Shown here piece by piece: positions 16,475 to 62,091 of a stretch of 64,000 nt of DNA; the first letter of the stretch is position 1; every line of letters begins with the position of its first letter. The position numbers and the translations under genes are program-made. The notes beneath the pieces are model-generated. The model saw only the letters and a list, made by a program, of their open reading frames with translations, was not told the DNA's origin and did not search any database. This DNA comes from Halospina denitrificans (GTDB lineage: Bacteria > Pseudomonadota > Gammaproteobacteria > Pseudomonadales > Oleiphilaceae), in contig NZ_SOAX01000008.1 of NCBI RefSeq assembly GCF_004364635.1, forward strand, positions 7,196-71,195, written 5' to 3'.

Positions 16475-17668
<1,194 letters not shown>

Positions 17669-54800: not shown

Positions 54801-55062
54801 GTCGGGCCTCAGCTCCGGTTCCACCTCCGTGGTCTCCGTGGAGGATCAGTTGGAGGCGGGTGAGCCCCGGCCCGGTTCGGAACTGCAGCTCACGGCGCCC
54901 GGGAAGGGCAATACCGGTGATGTTGGCGTCAGTTTCGGTGTTCCCGTCTGGCTGCAGGATGACTTTGATCGCGACGGCATTCTGGAGGACCCGAGCGCGG
55001 TAGCCACCTTTGGCGTCTTCCGCGGCCATGACCGCATCATCTACTGGCGCGAGGTACAGTAA
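51814..55062 (+). CDS. mshQ: MshQ, large LamG-containing probable MSHA tip adhesin
   Basis: The 1082-residue product has a signal peptide (1-24, ending ASAG), a PKD-like region (about 25-125), and a concanavalin/LamG-type domain (about 143-369, with FTLAAWVRLDD and GNWVHLAVTYSG). A long C-terminal part (about 480-1080) is typical of MshQ proteins. It is strongly acidic. A Ca-binding-like aspartate-rich loop occurs near residues 672-698. It probably sits at the pilus tip or surface; ligand unknown. ATG 51814 overlaps the mshP stop, and the stop is four bases from the convergent ntrC. Confidence 0.88.
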   Translation: MRKAAGYALWMLVLLAAGQASAGVELSLEGETESPVEVMQGEEVLFEVEATGCDNVTAEEWRYAWESGDGARDESGATDTSPCNAAPLEYPHTYDETGDYTGSFVAEYCTSLRGRRCQNWETFDTDEINVTVTFNPDSLIYRYYFDGETWDGTAGEVTDYSGNNLDGTALGAATDDTEPARAGDPGTCDYGVFAGSDRIEGPASGQVANTTSFTLAAWVRLDDAEQNADFPSLIAYGDTANDGFAERFEFYLDRTTAPAEYVLAIRRENGQVRDFAVETGSNGSADPLSGNWVHLAVTYSGASRDAVLYVNGNEVVSDGLKGPQGLADATAGLGLMAHTGGAYSAVGDMDEPRVIDGVLAEADVESLFLETRPCGVTAFDVTAPAEASVCAPAEVTVTALNSKGNAVTGYEGNVQLATSAGHGNWSVLTGNGTLTPDPHTADDGSAEYDFVTEDDGEVIFGLSNERADELEVSVTDPDLGATGTSDPIQFLENAFAIRTVDALGDDLVAGRGHDIEIEALRRDPDSGECGPITAYDGDVGVKAWIDRSGVDPGGDAPVLEAANDSASMPDSQPANDNVAITFNQGLAAVNWQTSDVGQYALNLLDDSSGLVVDTNDDPIPVSGTGPEWTVRPFGFDVAVADNPGAQDAGGPGFLAAGGDFEVTLRAVTWQAGDDADDDGQPDGHSDPDPDGNADLSDNAVAGAFGGSGPEVEVSATLVSGPPDPADPGLVDGPLTANAFASGQDAVTAAYMEVGSISLLADLGGSYLGQARTVVGRSGYVGRFHPELFTAVPADGSFQDECNGFVYIGQDFGYALEPELEIIPRGYVDSGTGPQLTNYRGNWQRLDAGGVNRDYPVEDDNNALTIDVTPEVPGTLLPLGDGRMDYVFGADEYRYVKDEDARVSPFDAALTTAITAIDDGDAALDPDQQPSGSNPLSVTPEGVELRYGRLRLQNAYGPETLDLIVPMRAEYWDDGFTLNTDEGCWLYNTDEDVTLDQSGLSSGSTSVVSVEDQLEAGEPRPGSELQLTAPGKGNTGDVGVSFGVPVWLQDDFDRDGILEDPSAVATFGVFRGHDRIIYWREVQ

Positions 55063-55066
55063 GAGG

Positions 55067-56494
55067 TCACTCCTCGCTGTCCTCGCTCTCCATCCCCAGC
55101 TCCTTGATCTTGCGCGTCAGGGTGTTGCGCCCCCACCCCAGCATCCCCGCCGCATCGCGACGCCGTCCGCCGGTGTGCTTCAGCGCCACCTCAATTATGA
55201 TGCGCTCGAATTCCGGCAGGGCCGTATCCAGTATCGGATGCTTGCCCTGCTTCAGGGCCTTGTCCGCCCAGTCCCGCAGCTGTTCCTGCCAGCTGCCGCC
55301 GGCGCTCTCGGCCGCTTCCTGCTCGGTCAGCTCCCGGGGCAGGTCGCTCACGTGCACCTCCCGCCCCGAGGCCATAACGGTCAACCAGCGGCAGACGTTC
55401 TCAAGCTGGCGCACGTTGCCCGGCCAGGGCAGGGTGCTCAGGTAGGTCTCGGTCTCCGGCTTCAGCACCTTGGGCTCCACGGACAGCTCCTGCGCCGCTT
55501 TCTTCAGGAAGTGGTGCATCAACAGTGGGATGTCCTCCCGGCGTTCGCTCAGGGTCGGCAGGTGGATGCGGATGACGTTCAGGCGGTGGAACAGGTCCTC
55601 CCGGAAGCTGCCTTCACGGACCCGTTCTTCAAGATCCTGATGGGTGGCGGCGATGATGCGCACGTCCACGCGCATGGGGGTGGCGCCGCCCACGCGGTAG
55701 AACTCACCATCGGCCAGGACTCGCAGCAGCCGCGTCTGGGTTTCGGCGGGCATATCGCCAATCTCATCCAGGAACAGAGTACCGCCGTGCGACTGCTCGA
55801 ACCGGCCCTGGCGAACGGCGGAGGCGCCGGTAAACGCGCCTTTCTCGTGGCCGAAGAGCTCCGATTCAATCAGGTCCCGGGGAATGGCGGCCATGTTCAG
55901 CGCGACAAAGGGGCCGTCATCCCTCGGGCTGTGATTATGCAGGGCGCGCGCGACCAGCTCCTTACCCGTGCCGCTCTCACCGTTGATCAGCACCGTGATA
56001 TTGGAGTGGGACAGCCGGCCAATGGCCCGGAAAACCTCCTGCATGGCCGGGGCTTCCCCAATGATCTCCGCATTCTCGCCCCGCGCTTCCACGTTGGCGG
56101 CCTTGTTGCTGGAGCGACGCTCACGGCTGTGCTCAATGGCGCGGCGGAGCAGTTCCAGGGCCTCGTCCACGTCAAAGGGCTTGGGCAGATACTCGAAAGC
56201 CCCTGTTTGGTAGGAGGAGACGGCGCTGTCCAGGTCGGAGTGGGCGGTCATGATGATGACGGGAACATCCGGGTAATCCTGGCCGATTGACTTGAGGAGG
56301 CTGATGCCGTCTATGCCGGGCATTCGGATGTCACTGATGATCGCATCCGGGACCTCGGTTTCCAGGCGCCCCAGCACGCCTTCCCCGGACTCGAAACTGA
56401 CGGTGGTCATGCCGGCCTGGGAAAGCGCGCGGTCGAGAACCCAGCGGATGCTCCGGTCGTCGTCGATGATCCAGACAGTCGCGTTCTCAGTCAT
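55067..56494 (-). CDS. ntrC: Nitrogen regulation response regulator NtrC (NR-I)
   Basis: NtrC activates sigma54 promoters under nitrogen limitation. The 475-residue product has a receiver domain with phospho-acceptor Asp55, an AAA+ domain with Walker A GESGTGKE at 172-179 and the sigma54-contact loop GAFTGA at 219-224. The C-terminal Fis-type helix-turn-helix is GGRRRDAAGMLGWGRNTLTR. Start ATG 56494 overlaps the ntrB stop (ATGA); a longer in-frame start would lie inside ntrB. The NtrC palindromes found before glnA and ntrB are its likely targets. Confidence 0.96.
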   Translation of the reverse strand: MTENATVWIIDDDRSIRWVLDRALSQAGMTTVSFESGEGVLGRLETEVPDAIISDIRMPGIDGISLLKSIGQDYPDVPVIIMTAHSDLDSAVSSYQTGAFEYLPKPFDVDEALELLRRAIEHSRERRSSNKAANVEARGENAEIIGEAPAMQEVFRAIGRLSHSNITVLINGESGTGKELVARALHNHSPRDDGPFVALNMAAIPRDLIESELFGHEKGAFTGASAVRQGRFEQSHGGTLFLDEIGDMPAETQTRLLRVLADGEFYRVGGATPMRVDVRIIAATHQDLEERVREGSFREDLFHRLNVIRIHLPTLSERREDIPLLMHHFLKKAAQELSVEPKVLKPETETYLSTLPWPGNVRQLENVCRWLTVMASGREVHVSDLPRELTEQEAAESAGGSWQEQLRDWADKALKQGKHPILDTALPEFERIIIEVALKHTGGRRRDAAGMLGWGRNTLTRKIKELGMESEDSEE

Positions 56495-57561
56495 TCGGAA
56501 GACTCCAGCGGCAGGAAAATGATAAAGCGCGTATGGCCTGGCCTGCTCTCGCATTCGACCAGGCCCTCATGCTGCCCCACGATGCTCTGGGTAATGGCAA
56601 GGCCAAGGCCGGTGCCATCCGCCCGTCCGCTGATCATGGGGTAGAAGATGTTCTGTTGCAGTGGCTTGGGAATGCCCGGGCCGTTGTCGATGATGTCCAC
56701 CCGGCAGGCCAGTCGGTGGCGTTTGTGGCCGATGGTGAACTGGCGCAGGGCCCGGGTGCGCATCGTTATCGTCGGCTCCGCGTTCGTGGGCGGATGCTGG
56801 GTGAGGATTTCCAGCGCATTGCGGGCAATGTTGAGGATCGCCTGGATCAGCTGCTCCCGGTCTCCCATGAATTCGGGAATACTGGGATCGTAATCGCGCA
56901 CGAACCGGACCTGATCACCGCCTTCCGCCTCAAGCAGCGTCCTGACGTGCTCGACCACATCATGGATGTTGGTGGGTGCCGTCTCTATGGCCCGGTTCGG
57001 CCCGAGCATCCGGTCCACCAGGGTGCGCAGGCGGTCCGCCTCTTCCATGATGACCCGCGTGAAGTCCTGAAGTTCCGGGTTATCCAGCTCCCTCTGGAGC
57101 AACTGGGCTGCGCCCCGGATTCCGCCCAGCGGGTTCTTGATCTCGTGGGCCATGCCGCGCACCAGGGTGCGGGTGGTCTCCTGTTGGGTGAGGATTTCCT
57201 CTTCCCGGGTAATGCGCTGCAGGCGGTCCCGTTGCTGGATTTCCATCAGCAGCAGGGGTTCGTCCCCGGGGAATGGGGAGATGGAATAATCCACGCAGAT
57301 CAACTGGCCGGTCGGCAGCAGCAGTTCCGCTTCACGCTTGGTGAAGGTATGGCCGGTGGCCGCGGTTTCGGTCAGTGTTTGCAGGGCTGAATCGGGCTCC
57401 ACAAAAATGTCCGTAACCGGCAGTCCCCGGATTCGCTCCCCGCTGATCTGCAACAGCATCTCGGCGGCCGGGTTGATGTACCGGGTATGCTTGGTGTTAT
57501 CCAGCACCAGTACGGCCGTGGCCAGGTTGTCCAGTATGCGCTGGTGCATTGGTTCGGTCAT
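56491..57561 (-). CDS. ntrB: Nitrogen regulation sensor histidine kinase NtrB (NR-II)
   Basis: NtrB phosphorylates or dephosphorylates NtrC in response to the PII protein. The 356-residue cytoplasmic product has an N-terminal PAS domain (about 5-115), the H-box GMAHEIKNPLGGIRGAAQLL with His139, and a C-terminal GHKL ATPase domain with DNGPGIPK and GTGLGLAI. ATG 57561 is preceded by GGGAGGAT. A sigma54 promoter just upstream with an NtrC site about 155 bases further indicates autogenous activation. Confidence 0.96.
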   Translation of the reverse strand: MTEPMHQRILDNLATAVLVLDNTKHTRYINPAAEMLLQISGERIRGLPVTDIFVEPDSALQTLTETAATGHTFTKREAELLLPTGQLICVDYSISPFPGDEPLLLMEIQQRDRLQRITREEEILTQQETTRTLVRGMAHEIKNPLGGIRGAAQLLQRELDNPELQDFTRVIMEEADRLRTLVDRMLGPNRAIETAPTNIHDVVEHVRTLLEAEGGDQVRFVRDYDPSIPEFMGDREQLIQAILNIARNALEILTQHPPTNAEPTITMRTRALRQFTIGHKRHRLACRVDIIDNGPGIPKPLQQNIFYPMISGRADGTGLGLAITQSIVGQHEGLVECESRPGHTRFIIFLPLESSE

Positions 57562-57584
57562 ATCATCCTCCCTCGCAAGGAGTC

Positions 57585-57600
57585 TGCAAAAAGTGAACCA
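57585..57600 (-). promoter_or_regulatory. Sigma54 promoter of ntrBC
   Basis: The - strand reads TGGTTCACTTTTTGCA, with GG and GC separated by ten bases and a perfect TTGCA at -12. The start of transcription is predicted near 57574, only 13 bases before the ntrB ATG, leaving just enough leader for the ribosome binding site. Confidence 0.75.
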
Positions 57601-57721
57601 GAAATGAGCCCTGTTTCCGGTCTGTGAAAGGCATAAAAAACAGGTGCTTACGTGTGGGCGTGTGCGGTGTTCAGCATTTGCTCAACGCAGTTCACCAAAA
57701 GAGGGCGCATCACCTGTGGAG

Positions 57722-57738
57722 TGCACTAATATGGTGCG
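57722..57738. promoter_or_regulatory. NtrC-binding site upstream of ntrB
   Basis: TGCACTAATATGGTGCG closely matches the enteric NtrC palindrome (GCAC-N7-GTGC with a GGTGC half site). Its centre is about 156 bases upstream of the predicted ntrB transcript start, a typical enhancer distance. Confidence 0.78.
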
Positions 57739-57780
57739 CTTGCGTGACCCGCTTGTGAAGAGGGTTTGAGGCTTAAAGGC

Positions 57781-58347
57781 TCAGTTCAGGCGCGATGGGC
57801 GATGGAGGGTGAATCGGGTGGCATCGGAGGAGGTGATGACTTGGCCACTGGAGTCGAGAACGTGCACAACAACGGTGTGGGTGCCGCGATCCACGTTATT
57901 CAGCGAAAACGTGCCACTGCTGTTCGTGTCGCCGCGTTCGCCATCAAACTCAAGCTGGTAGCTGTGTCCCTGGATTAACTCGGGCTCAGTGCGTGCGCGT
58001 ATCGTGACCATGCCGCCGCCGTGCCAGAAAGCACTCTCATGTTCCGGTTCCACGATCTCAACACGCTCGTAGTCTTCACGTTCTTGGGTCTTTTCGGTGT
58101 CTTCCTCCTGAGTGTTCTGTCTGTTGGAGGGGCGTTCGGGACTCGGTATGCTCACTTCCGGAAGCGGGGCAAGCTCCATGGGTTTAGTGTCCTTCTCGGG
58201 TGGTTCGTCCGAATAGGTCACGTTGCCCTGATCATCCACATGCCGATAGATCTCTCCCGCCTGTACTGCACCAAAAAGCAGCACTACCAGGACTGAAAGG
58301 ATCAGCGCAGCGCGGATACGGTAAGAGGAGGAAGTGGTCAGCGTCAT
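57781..58347 (-). CDS. DUF4124 domain-containing exported protein
   Basis: The 188-residue product has an N-terminal signal peptide or anchor (about 10-30) and a DUF4124 domain (about 31-55, EIYRHVDDQGNVTYSDEPPE). A charged low-complexity linker (about 65-105) and a C-terminal beta-rich, Ig-like part (about 112-185) follow. The function is unknown. It lies between glnA and ntrB, a place where DUF4124 genes are often found in gammaproteobacteria, and has its own leader after the glnA terminator. ATG 58347 is the only well-placed start. Confidence 0.8.
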   Translation of the reverse strand: MTLTTSSSYRIRAALILSVLVVLLFGAVQAGEIYRHVDDQGNVTYSDEPPEKDTKPMELAPLPEVSIPSPERPSNRQNTQEEDTEKTQEREDYERVEIVEPEHESAFWHGGGMVTIRARTEPELIQGHSYQLEFDGERGDTNSSGTFSLNNVDRGTHTVVVHVLDSSGQVITSSDATRFTLHRPSRLN

Positions 58348-58413
58348 GATGCTCCCAGTCAGCAGTGTGGAAACTCTTACCTGATTATTGGAGCCTGACG
58401 CGCTTAATGCAAT

Positions 58414-58447
58414 AAAAAACCCGGCGCGGGTTACCCCGGCCGGGTTT
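58414..58447 (-). terminator. Intrinsic terminator of glnA
   Basis: On the - strand, arms AAACCCGGC (58447-58439) and GCCGGGTTT (58425-58417) form a 9-bp stem with an inner GC-rich loop, followed by a T run (58419-58414). It is 22 bases past the glnA stop and separates glnA from the DUF4124 gene. Confidence 0.88.
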
Positions 58448-58469
58448 CTGGCAGTACTGCGCTCCGGGT

Positions 58470-59876
58470 TTAGACAGAGTAGTACATATCGAATTCCACC
58501 GGATGGGTGGTCATGTTGTAACGGGTCACTTCTTCCCGCTTCAGTTCAAGGAAGCCCTGGATCATGTCTTCAGTGAAGACGCCGCCACGGGTCAGGAACT
58601 CGTGATCCGCTTCCAGCGCGTCCAGTGCTTCCTGGAAGGTTTCCGCTACGGTCGGGATCTCGAGTGCTTCTTCCGCTGGCAGGTCGTACAGATCCTTGTC
58701 CATGGCTTCGCCGGGGTGGATCTTGTTCTGGATGCCGTCCAGGCCCGCCATGACCAGCGCGGAGAACGCCAGATAGGGGTTGGCGGTGGCGTCCGGGAAG
58801 CGAACTTCCATGCGGCGCGCCTTGGGGCTGTTCACGTAGGGAATCCGGATGGATGCAGAGCGGTTGCGGGCGGAGTAGGCCAGCATAACCGGTGCTTCAA
58901 AGCCGGGAACCAGGCGCTTGTAGGAGTTGGTGGACGAGTTGGTGAACGCGTTGATGGCCTTGGCGTGCTTGATAACGCCGCCGATGTAATACAGCGCGGT
59001 CTCACTCAGGCCCGCGTAGCTGTCGCCGGCAAACAGGTTCTTGCCGTCCTTGCTCAGGGACATGTGGACGTGCATGCCGGAGCCGTTATCGCCAACCACC
59101 GGCTTGGGCATGAAGGTTGCCGTCTTGCCGTAAGCATGGGCGACGTTATGGACGCAGTACTTCAGTACCTGCACTTCGTCTGCCTTGCGTACCAGGGTGT
59201 TGGCGCCAACGCCGATCTCACACTGGCCGGCCGTGCCCACTTCGTGGTGATGCACTTCCACGTCCAGGTTCATCGCTTCCATGGCGGCACACATGGCGCC
59301 ACGCAGGTCGTGCAGGGAATCCACCGGCGGTACCGGGAAATAGCCGCCTTTCACGCCGGGGCGGTGGCCGATGTTGTTGCGGTCAAAATCCTCGCCGGAT
59401 ACCCAGGCTGCTTCCTCGGAATGGATCTCGTACATGGCGGACTCCATGTCCACTTTCCATTTGGCGGAATCGAAGACGAAGAATTCCGGCTCCGGGCCAA
59501 AGAGGGCGGAGTCAGCAATGCCGGCGGACTGCATGTAGTCTTCCGCGCGGCGCGCGACGGAGCGGGGGTCACGCTCGTAACCCTGCATGGTGGCGGGCTC
59601 AACGATGTCGCAGGTGATGTTGATCGTCGGTTCTTCAGTGAATGGATCCAGTGTCACGGCATTGTCATCCGGCATCAGGATCATGTCGGACTCATTGATG
59701 CCTTTCCAGCCGTTGATGGAGGAGCCATCAAACATCTTGCCGTCGGTAAAGAAGTCGTCATCCACTTCCTTGGCGGGCAGCGTTACGTGCATCTCTTTAC
59801 CGTGGCTGTCGGTGAATCGCAGGTCCACCCATTTAACGTCGTGTTCCTGGATAAGATTCATCGTCTTGCTGGACAT
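58470..59876 (-). CDS. glnA: Glutamine synthetase type I
   Basis: Glutamine synthetase condenses ammonia and glutamate with ATP hydrolysis and is the entry enzyme of nitrogen assimilation. The 468-residue product begins [20 protein letters not shown], and has [25 protein letters not shown] and the ATP-binding [14 protein letters not shown]. The adenylation site is Tyr397 in DLYDLP, so GlnE-type control is expected (I-beta class). ATG 59876 is preceded by TGGAGTTC; the frame is open further up, but that region is the promoter. Transcription is from the sigma54 promoter upstream. Confidence 0.97.
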
Positions 59877-59986
59877 GGTCAGAACTCCATCTGTGGTTCG
59901 TGTTGATATATGAGAGCTGTTTTGCTCCGGGGCGTGGACCTGGTGTGCACCGTTATAGGTCCCGTCGTAGCGCCTGAGTTCCATTA

Positions 59987-60002
59987 AGCAAAAGCTTTGC
60001 CA
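59987..60002 (-). promoter_or_regulatory. Sigma54 promoter of glnA
   Basis: The - strand reads TGGCAAAGCTTTTGCT, matching the -24 TGGCA and -12 TTGCT elements with the GG-N10-GC spacing. The predicted start near 59976 gives a 100-base leader before the glnA ATG. Confidence 0.85.
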
Positions 60003-60043
60003 ACTTTGATTCGCCACTGGATTTGCCGCATAACAACAAGTTG

Positions 60044-60058
60044 GCGCTACCGTGGTGC
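60044..60058. promoter_or_regulatory. NtrC site 1 upstream of glnA (weaker)
   Basis: GCGCTACCGTGGTGC keeps the GGTGC half site and a degenerate left half. The centre is about 75 bases upstream of the predicted glnA transcript start. Confidence 0.6.
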
Positions 60059-60076
60059 GAACATAACCGACTCAAG

Positions 60077-60093
60077 TGCACCTTAATGGTGCT
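60077..60093. promoter_or_regulatory. NtrC site 2 upstream of glnA (strong)
   Basis: TGCACCTTAATGGTGCT has two perfect half sites (GCACC and GGTGC) separated by five bases. Its centre is about 109 bases upstream of the predicted start and 34 bases from site 1. Confidence 0.85.
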
Positions 60094-60108
60094 TTCAATG
60101 TTGGGCGC

Positions 60109-60123
60109 GCTCCTTTTTGGTGC
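60109..60123. promoter_or_regulatory. NtrC site 3 upstream of glnA
   Basis: GCTCCTTTTTGGTGC has one perfect half site and one with a single mismatch. Its centre is 31 bases from site 2, so the three sites lie on roughly the same face of the helix. Confidence 0.6.
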
Positions 60124-60189
60124 AGTCAAGCTGAGTGCGGTAATCATCGGTGATTCCGGTATCAGATGGTACAGCCTTCCTTATTGCTG

Positions 60190-60195
60190 TATACT
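60190..60195 (+). promoter_or_regulatory. Candidate -10 element of typA
   Basis: TATACT matches five of six -10 positions, 85 bases before the typA start. The best -35 (GGTACA, 16-base spacing) matches only three of six, so this is tentative. Confidence 0.35.
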
Positions 60196-60279
60196 GCGCC
60201 GCCCCGGATCGGCATCAGCCGTCCGGTCACCATTGTGTCCATCCTTTTCAGAAAATACCAGTGATTCAGAGGCTCCTTA

Positions 60280-62091
60280 GTGATAGAAAATCTTCGCAAT
60301 ATCGCCATCATCGCCCACGTTGACCATGGGAAGACCACTCTGGTCGACCAGTTGTTGCAGCAGTCGGGAACCCTGGATCGCAAGAACTCGGACACCGACC
60401 GGATCATGGATTCGGATGACCAGGAGAAAGAGCGCGGCATTACCATCCTGTCCAAGAACACCGCGCTGAACTGGCACGACTACCGTATCAACATCGTGGA
60501 TACCCCCGGCCACGCCGATTTCGGCGGTGAGGTGGAGCGCGTCATGTCCATGGTGGATTCCGTGCTGCTGCTTGTGGACGCGGTCGACGGCCCCATGCCG
60601 CAGACGCGTTTCGTCACCCAGAAGGCGTTCGCGCAGGGCCTGAACCCGATCGTGGTGGTGAACAAGGTTGACCGGGAAGGTGCACGCCCCGACTGGGTGG
60701 TCAATGAGGTTTTCGAACTGTTTGATGCACTCGGCGCCAATGAAGAGCAGCTCGATTTCCCGGTTGTCTATGCCTCAGCGATCAACGGCATCGCCGGCGC
60801 GGACCCGGAGCAGATGGAAGACGACATGCAGTCGCTGTTCCGCATGATCGTTGATTACGTGCCCGCGCCGACGGTCGACCCGAATGCCTCCCTGCAGATG
60901 CAGGTGTCATCCCTGGATTACGATCCCTACGTGGGCGTTCTGGGTGTGGGGCGCATCAAGGGCGGCCAGATGAAGCCCGGCCAGCAGGTCACCGTTATTG
61001 ACCGCCACGGCAAGCAGCGCAATGCCAAGCTGCTGGAGGTGAAAGGCTTCCTGGGGCTGAATCGCATCAACGTGGATGAGGCCAATGCGGGTGAGATCGT
61101 CTGTATCTCCGGCATCAGCGACCTCCATATCTCGGATACGATCTGCGCCAAGGAAGCGCCCGAGGCTATGCCGCCGCTGACGGTGGATGAGCCGACGGTG
61201 AGCATGACCTTCCAGGTCAACAACTCGCCTTTTGCGGGTCTGGAAGGCAAGTTCGTGACCAGCCGCCAGATCAAGGAGCGGCTGGAGCAGGAACTTCTGC
61301 ACAATGTTGCGCTGCGGGTTGAGCAGGGTGACGCGGCAGAGAAATTCACGGTGTCAGGCCGTGGTGAGCTTCACCTGGCGGTCCTGATCGAAAATATGCG
61401 CCGGGAAGGCTTCGAGCTCGGGGTTTCACGCCCCGAGGTGGTGCAGCGCCAGGGCGAGAACGGCACCGAAGAGCCCTATGAGCAGGTGGTGGTCGATATT
61501 GAGGATCAGCACCAGGGGCCGGTGATGGAAGAGCTCGGTAACCGCCGGGCGGAAATGGAGAACATGGTTCCCGACGGGCGTGGCCGCATCCGGCTTGATT
61601 TCATCATGCCGGCGCGGGGCCTGATCGGTTTCCGTTCCCAGTTCCTGACGCTGACGTCCGGTTCCGGCATTCTGACCCACGTGTTCGATCACTGGGGGCC
61701 GGTGAAGGGCGGCATGGCCGAGCATCGCCATAACGGCGCCATCGTTTCCATGGTCAAGGGTAAGACAACCGCCTACTCGCTGTTCACGCTCCAGGATCGT
61801 GGCCGCCTGATGGTGGCACCCGGCACGGAGGTCTACGAAGGCATGATCATCGGCATCCATGCCCGCGAGAGTGACCTGACCGTGAACCCGACCAAGGGTA
61901 AGCAGCTGACCAACGTGCGTGCCGCGGGTACTGATGAGAACCTGGTGCTGACGCCGCCGATCGACATGACGCTTGAGAACGCGCTTGAGTTCATCGATGA
62001 CGATGAGCTGGTCGAGGTCACACCCACCAGCATCCGTGTCCGCAAGAAGCTGCTGACCGAAGTGGAGCGCAAGCGTTCCGGAAAGAAATAG
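60280..62091 (+). CDS. typA: Translational GTPase TypA/BipA
   Basis: BipA is a ribosome-associated translational GTPase related to EF-G, needed for efficient 50S assembly and stress growth, especially in the cold. The 603-residue product has the P-loop AHVDHGKT at 12-19, [16 protein letters not shown] and NKVDR. The C-terminal BipA domain contains [14 protein letters not shown]. The start is GTG 60280. It is divergent from glnA, with the shared 403-base region containing the NtrC sites, the same neighbourhood as in many enterics. Confidence 0.97.

Follow-up and report, generated by a model that had tools for sequence, protein, structure and literature searches.

The stretch of DNA analysed here (hereafter the window; 64,000 nucleotides from a genome of 3.3 Mb) carries on its minus strand, in this order, glnA (58470-59876), a gene for a DUF4124-domain protein (57781-58347; PF13511), ntrB (56491-57561) and ntrC (55067-56494). 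glnA encodes a type I glutamine synthetase (NF007006 and TIGR00653, above cut-off) and is followed at its 3′ side by a predicted intrinsic terminator (58418-58432, minus strand), a hairpin with a T run that can also be read in three congeners. The product of ntrB (glnL), the nitrogen sensor kinase NR(II) of 356 aa, was assigned by the NCBIfam equivalog NF008293 (378 bits against a cut-off of 240) and shares 43% identity with E. coli NtrB. The start of ntrC (glnG) overlaps the stop of ntrB (ATGA), and its product, the response regulator and sigma54 activator NR(I) (TIGR01818 and NF008176, above cut-off), is 67% identical to E. coli NtrC, contains the GAFTGA loop and has kept the C-terminal LGWGRNTLTRKxKELGME, with the helix segment differing from that of E. 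coli at one position. Both proteins are thus full-length with scores above their family cut-offs, and the DNA-binding and sigma54-contacting parts expected of the NtrC that serves an NtrC enhancer are conserved. In addition, rpoN was found in the genome by a Sigma54_AID match of 65 bits (G000:C2:335373-335507). At 90-91% identity in NtrB, Halovibrio salipaludis and strains labelled Vreelandella utahensis were the closest named relatives found, followed by Mangrovitalea and Marinobacter. An Rfam scan of positions 55000-60500 yielded no element at the gathering threshold.

Upstream of glnA, which was used as comparator, a sigma54 element, TTGGCAAAGCTTTTGCT, is located at 59987-60003 on the minus strand, and two NtrC sites (60077-60093 and 60108-60124) lie within 60077-60124. 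The glnK gene of this genome (L195, G000:C1:509399-509716) has the sigma54 element TTGGCACAGGGCGTGCA and an NtrC-like site 62 bp upstream of it. Outside the nitrogen locus, the window contains an exact direct repeat of 300 nt (2-301 and 16475-16774, spacing 16473 bp), 300 nt being the reported reference length and further matches at the same offset suggesting a longer repeat. Since the first copy is situated within the reading frame 2-1195, which we take to encode an elongation factor Tu-like protein, the repeat probably represents duplicated tuf genes.

Directly before ntrB, a sigma54 (RpoN) -24/-12 element of ntrBC, CTGGTTCACTTTTTGCA, was predicted at 57585-57601 on the minus strand, a position that aligns in the congeners. 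Its GG (57599-57598) and GC (57587-57586) are separated by the 10 bases characteristic of sigma54 elements, and the predicted transcription start near 57574 would leave a leader of 13 nt to the ntrB ATG at 57561, with a GGGAGG in between. Compared with the sigma54 consensus TGGCACG-N4-TTGCW (-24 form TGGCAYR), the -12 side is perfect and the -24 side, TGGTTCA, consists of TGG plus one further matching base; the CA that follows the GG at -24 in the consensus is absent from the window. Further upstream, positions 57722-57738 contain a predicted NtrC palindrome, the putative enhancer, which reads CGCACCATATTAGTGCA on the minus strand. It has the GCAC-N7-GTGC form of an NtrC enhancer and lies at looping distance, its centre at 57730 being 156 bp upstream of 57574 and the palindrome as a whole 120 bp upstream of the sigma54 element and 160 nt before the ntrB start codon. 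A review gives 70 bp as the smallest distance from an NtrC enhancer to the start (PMC7408454). The minus-strand reading therefore agrees with the original prediction of a GG-N10-GC element with a perfect TTGCA, a leader of 13 nt before the ntrB ATG and a near-perfect NtrC palindrome about 156 bases upstream (57738-57722), with the term near-perfect fitting the NtrC site only, as the -24 half of the sigma54 element departs from the consensus. A weaker NtrC-like site, tentatively assigned at 57709-57725 (TGCACTCCACAGGTGAT, score 18/22), overlaps the first at an offset of 13 bp, and its distance of 107 bp to the promoter element places it close to the preferred helical face described below (1.7 bp off); one congener inspected at this offset had no second NtrC match.

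On its own, the palindrome core is weak evidence, because it occurs 24 times in the 3.3-Mb genome versus 21 times for a reversed-pattern control. In a four-way alignment of the window and three congeners, spanning the interval from the DUF4124 gene to ntrB, the clearest runs common to all sequences coincided with the palindrome, with the -24/-12 element and with the region of ribosome-binding site and start codon; additional stretches are common to the three congeners but absent from the window. The comparison was extended to ntrB upstreams from 30 relative loci including that of the window, 80 loci of named genomes (the genomes partly overlapping) and 60 pieces representing further families within the order and the class, which gave 158 upstreams of at least 200 nt and, of these, 110 non-redundant ones. 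Motif scorers were set by hand from the consensus and thresholds were chosen after scan results had been seen, with shuffled sequences scored under the identical rule; start codons were assigned by rule, so that a few may be wrong. A sigma54 element was present in 95 of the 110 upstreams, an NtrC palindrome (score of at least 19/22) likewise in 95, and the ordered pair of both in 88, compared to means of 10.6, 3.3 and 0.15 (maximum 2 for the pair), respectively, in 20 dinucleotide-shuffled sets. The remaining 22 of 110 lacked this layout. A sigma54 element of this type (score 20) was present in all six Pseudomonas loci examined, and an NtrC site scoring at least 19 in five of them.

With 30 more distant genomes added, 87 class-wide pieces were obtained, nearly all from different families, except that family f33 contributed two pieces and the window's own family one; judging from the relatives, the class was taken as Gammaproteobacteria sensu lato. 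This set is not a random one: all pieces come from genomes with an NtrB match (209 of 276 and 55 of 58 genomes), and the 90 pieces picked were taken from high-scoring NtrB matches first and low-scoring ones after, three of them being excluded as unusable (L141, L246) or for unknown bases (L242). Ten of the 60 pieces had no ntrB match and were left out of the set of 110, and were recovered class-wide by a fixed anchor, so that some start codons differ between the sets. The layout was found in 47 of the 87 pieces (shuffled mean 0.3, maximum 2), whereas 40 lacked it: eight had a palindrome 0-30 nt before the ntrB start and 32 had neither arrangement. A DUF4124-like tblastn match upstream of ntrB was obtained in 55 of 88 class-wide pieces. 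Hence, the layout is not peculiar to this genome but recurs in many related bacteria. Among the variants encountered, four loci (L164, L175, L227 and L236) have the palindrome 14-17 nt before the ntrB start and an ntrB-type sigma54 site about 100-130 bp upstream of the palindrome, which could mean that the enhancer naturally lies downstream or that the layout serves both activation and repression. In three others (L243, L251 and L229), the ntrB ATG is directly or almost directly adjoined by a perfect NtrC palindrome that contains a -10-like hexamer (as in TGCACTACAATGGTGCAATG of L243), which points to an autorepressed and perhaps leaderless start.

Palindrome-promoter distances ranged from 49 to 215 bp and tended to fall close to multiples of some 10.6 bp (R = 0.58 at a period of 10.7 bp, n = 88, none of 5000 jittered sets reaching this value), as expected from a looping activator bound to one helical face. 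The clustering was also seen when only distinct spacings were counted as a control for relatedness (n = 54, R = 0.44, p = 0.00075), in the order/class pieces with nearly one sequence per family (n = 35, R = 0.51, p = 0.00075) and class-wide (n = 47, R = 0.49, 0/5000), where 35 of 47 spacings fell within 2.65 bp of the mean phase. Enhancers of glnA showed a phase of -0.5 bp (R = 0.59, 33 genomes), those of ntrB -0.4 to -0.7 bp, and those of glnK were near the same phase (-1.7 bp; 13 sites, partly redundant). With its primary spacing of 120 bp, the window departs from the preferred face by 4.1 bp, and the congeners, with 90 bp, do so by 4.7 bp; in six Pseudomonas loci the spacing was 125-127 bp. 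A scan for IHF sites that might compensate for off-phase spacing revealed no signal (mean best score 6.64 versus 6.48 in shuffled sequences), and this idea was rejected. A second NtrC site at +13 was present in only 3 of 88 ntrB loci and was thus rejected as a general feature of ntrB; at 19 bp downstream of the best match, a second NtrC-like match (score of at least 16) was present in 15 of the 88 non-redundant loci. Upstream of glnA, several Marinobacter loci (L058, L061, L067) contain NtrC arrays offset by 13 bp that share a TGCA, with three half-sites in a row.

As most ntrB promoters share the departure of the -24 half from the consensus, TGGTTCA can be regarded as a conserved variant. A glnA upstream was usable in 69 of the 80 named loci and in the window, and 35 non-redundant genomes with both genes were compared by scoring only the GG, the TTGC and their immediate neighbours, with an upstream NtrC site required and bases -23 to -16 left unscored. 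For glnA, a core site was present in 33 of the 35 genomes, with GGCA in all 33; for ntrB of the same genomes it was present in 32, with GGCA in none and GGTT in 23 of 33 sites. Unbiased scoring of all 110 non-redundant ntrB upstreams returned a site in 92, and of 94 sites one had GGCA and 64 had GGTT. By other rules, GGCA at ntrB amounted to 7 of 101 (a rule favouring the consensus, NtrC site not required), 2 of 93 and, class-wide, 4 of 47 with 25 GGTT. The glnK promoters passing both thresholds (13 of 30 loci) all had GGCA, in a set that includes several near-identical congeners and in which ties were broken towards the consensus. With ntrB mostly GGTT and glnA and glnK GGCA, the three NtrC targets thus carry locus-specific versions of the element. 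The bases preceding TTGC at ntrB are T-rich, with T occupying -17 in 90% and -18 in 73% of the sites (n = 88). At nifH, T residues near -17 to -14 raise the affinity of the holoenzyme, and a promoter in which such residues make up for a weaker -24 half would be well suited to feedback that is meant to lag behind the targets. We regard it as evenly balanced whether the ntrB promoters across Gammaproteobacteria form a distinct, selected sigma54 sub-type (weak -24, T-rich before TTGC, face-phased NtrC enhancer) by which feedback is kept weaker or later than expression of glnA and glnK, so that the regulator would be amplified only after its targets have been served.

The same palindrome could also be read as the operator of a sigma70 promoter, through which NtrC would repress ntrBC, as passages of PMC3870243 describe for E. 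coli glnLp, which is under negative NtrC control. In E. coli K-12, the palindrome is located 21 nt before glnL, and neither a sigma54 site passing the score nor a DUF4124-like match was found in the glnL upstream, so that the contrast with enterics drawn by the original prediction proved correct. A palindrome 0-30 nt before the ntrB start, as in E. coli K-12 and in eight of the 87 class-wide pieces, speaks for such repression, and rhizobial ntrBC is described as negatively autoregulated in a passage of PMC10746234. In the window, however, the palindrome does not lie beside the ntrB start over a sigma70 promoter, as it does at enteric glnLp, but 160 nt before the start codon with the conserved sigma54 element in between, and a tool scan of 57400-58600 detected no sigma70-like promoter. 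Based on the position of the palindrome, enteric-type repression of ntrB in the window was rejected, and repression by NtrC is considered very unlikely here. The occurrence of the layout is linked to the distance from glnA: where the end of glnA was at most 300 nt from ntrB, a limit set after seeing the results for the 60 pieces, the layout was present in 1 of 15 cases, compared to 36 of 52 cases in which glnA was further away (Fisher p = 1.6e-5). In 20 class-wide pieces glnA was not found, and ten of these had the layout.

Expression of ntrBC mainly together with the DUF4124 gene, from a sigma70-like promoter behind the glnA terminator and with little contribution of the sigma54 element, has to be considered as well. 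A candidate for this promoter, TTGCAT-17-AATAAT, lies at 58384-58412 on the minus strand, the same hexamers at the same spacing being discernible by eye in three congeners, and a corresponding TTGnnn-17-GATAAT was found behind the glnA terminator in 21 of 36 loci, all 21 of them Marinobacter. Over the 36 loci, the sigma70 score at this place averaged 11.31 versus 9.89 in shuffled sequences, with 15 loci above the 90th percentile of the shuffles, and the stretch between the DUF4124 gene and ntrB yielded no terminator-like site. However, the site in the window is weak (score 11.0), being below the threshold of the tool scan and hence unreported by it, and the other 14 of the 36 loci, Pseudomonas and Oceanospirillum-type loci among them, had no clear site. 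Moreover, the strong conservation and phasing of the sigma54/NtrC pair imply that it matters, which makes it very unlikely that this promoter is the main source of ntrBC expression. Directly before ntrB, no sigma70-like signal above background was observed (mean 9.37 versus 9.63 shuffled, n = 110), and an overlapping sigma70 promoter downstream of the sigma54 element was rejected, given that no position from -10 to +19 (upstream of the start codon) with a sufficient number of sequences exceeded 0.25 bit and the score was not above that of the shuffles. For this reason, the basal NtrBC that seeds the loop would probably be supplied by read-through from the sigma70 promoter of the DUF4124 gene. 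That a different sigma54 activator drives the ntrB promoter and the palindrome is incidental appears extremely unlikely: other two-component partners may exist, because tblastn with NtrB gave 15 matches in the genome, ntrB itself among them, but the conserved palindrome matches the sites at glnA and glnK and shares nearly the same helical phase with them.

All these observations taken together, ntrBC is very probably an operon with its own nitrogen-inducible sigma54/NtrC promoter and a positive feedback separate from glnA. A promoter separate from that of glnA is suggested by the terminator of glnA and the DUF4124 gene in between. Positive feedback is the best reading in view of the full-length NtrB and NtrC, the E. 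coli-like C-terminal helix of NtrC, the presence of rpoN, the glnA terminator and intervening gene, the deep conservation of the sites, and the autoactivation reported for Pseudomonas fluorescens. Under nitrogen limitation, NtrB would phosphorylate NtrC, and phospho-NtrC would bind to 57722-57738 and perhaps also to the overlapping weaker site at 57709-57725. From there, it could loop to the sigma54-RNA polymerase waiting at 57585-57601 and melt the promoter, whereupon the levels of NtrB and NtrC would rise in a feedback loop distinct from that of glnA. Directly observed in the sequences are the elements and how they are conserved, the phasing in relatives and the terminator-like hairpin, from which we infer NtrC binding, sigma54 dependence, the direction of regulation and the basal source. 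The positive feedback of phospho-NtrC on its own operon, independent of glnA, that had been predicted originally is consequently retained as a mechanism inferred from both deeply conserved sites, the terminator and gene behind glnA and the P. fluorescens precedent, with two amendments: it is no peculiarity of this genome, and the window has its primary NtrC site off the face usually found in relatives. This off-face spacing in the window and the congeners, the off-consensus -24 half and the upstreams without the layout (22/110 and 40/87) count against the model.

The predicted activation by NtrC of its own operon, from a site within the ntrBC promoter, resembles the situation in P. fluorescens SBW25, and the arrangement of Pseudomonas, that is a sigma54 element plus an upstream NtrC site directly before ntrB and separate from glnA, is present here, although at a spacing of 120 bp instead of the 125-127 bp found in the six Pseudomonas loci. 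The primary study on ntrBC and HutC in P. fluorescens is reportedly that of Naren and Zhang from 2021. According to passages of other papers, NtrC of strain SBW25 targets the ntrBC promoter and activates its own expression (PMC12977541; PMC8871633; PMC10621929), with HutC competing with NtrC at this promoter at the Pntr site (PMC12977541; PMC8871633). With E. coli glnALG, the locus has in common the genes, the NtrC motif and a feedback of NtrC on its own synthesis (described in part of PMC3870243). Unlike in the window, the positive feedback in E. coli, according to the same passages, runs via glnAp2 upstream of glnA, while glnLp is under negative control and the glnL-proximal site is separated from the start by 21 nt. 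A further parallel is Klebsiella nifLA, an NtrC/sigma54 promoter of a regulator operon for which a passage of a review reports dependence on the face of the helix, adding that the face may matter less at glnALG (PMC7408454). In contrast to those experimental data on one promoter of a different gene, the phase preference described here was read from natural variation across families.

In kind, the autoactivation layout of ntrBC is already known, since autoactivation has been reported for P. fluorescens and sigma54 promoters have been predicted at NtrB genes of beta- and gamma-proteobacteria (PMC12316311, in the passage concerned). Likewise, a passage of PMC5343134 lists ntrB and ntrC as computed members of the NtrC core regulon. 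In these passages of both papers, ntrB or ntrC is placed under sigma54 or NtrC, as it is here, and spacing, -24 variant and glnA-fusion link are not mentioned. No description of the ntrB -24 variant, the cross-family phasing or the link to glnA fusion was found in the literature searched, which constitutes weak evidence of absence as subscription papers were mostly outside its scope.

Direct positive feedback on ntrBC is therefore suggested to be the commonest layout among the sampled families with an NtrB-like protein (47/87), and the textbook enteric arrangement to be an alternative state linked to the closeness of glnA or to a start-site operator. The natural variation in spacing represents a broad test of the helical-face dependence of NtrC enhancers, and the -24 variant of ntrB provides a two-base handle on the means by which a feedback promoter might be kept below its targets.
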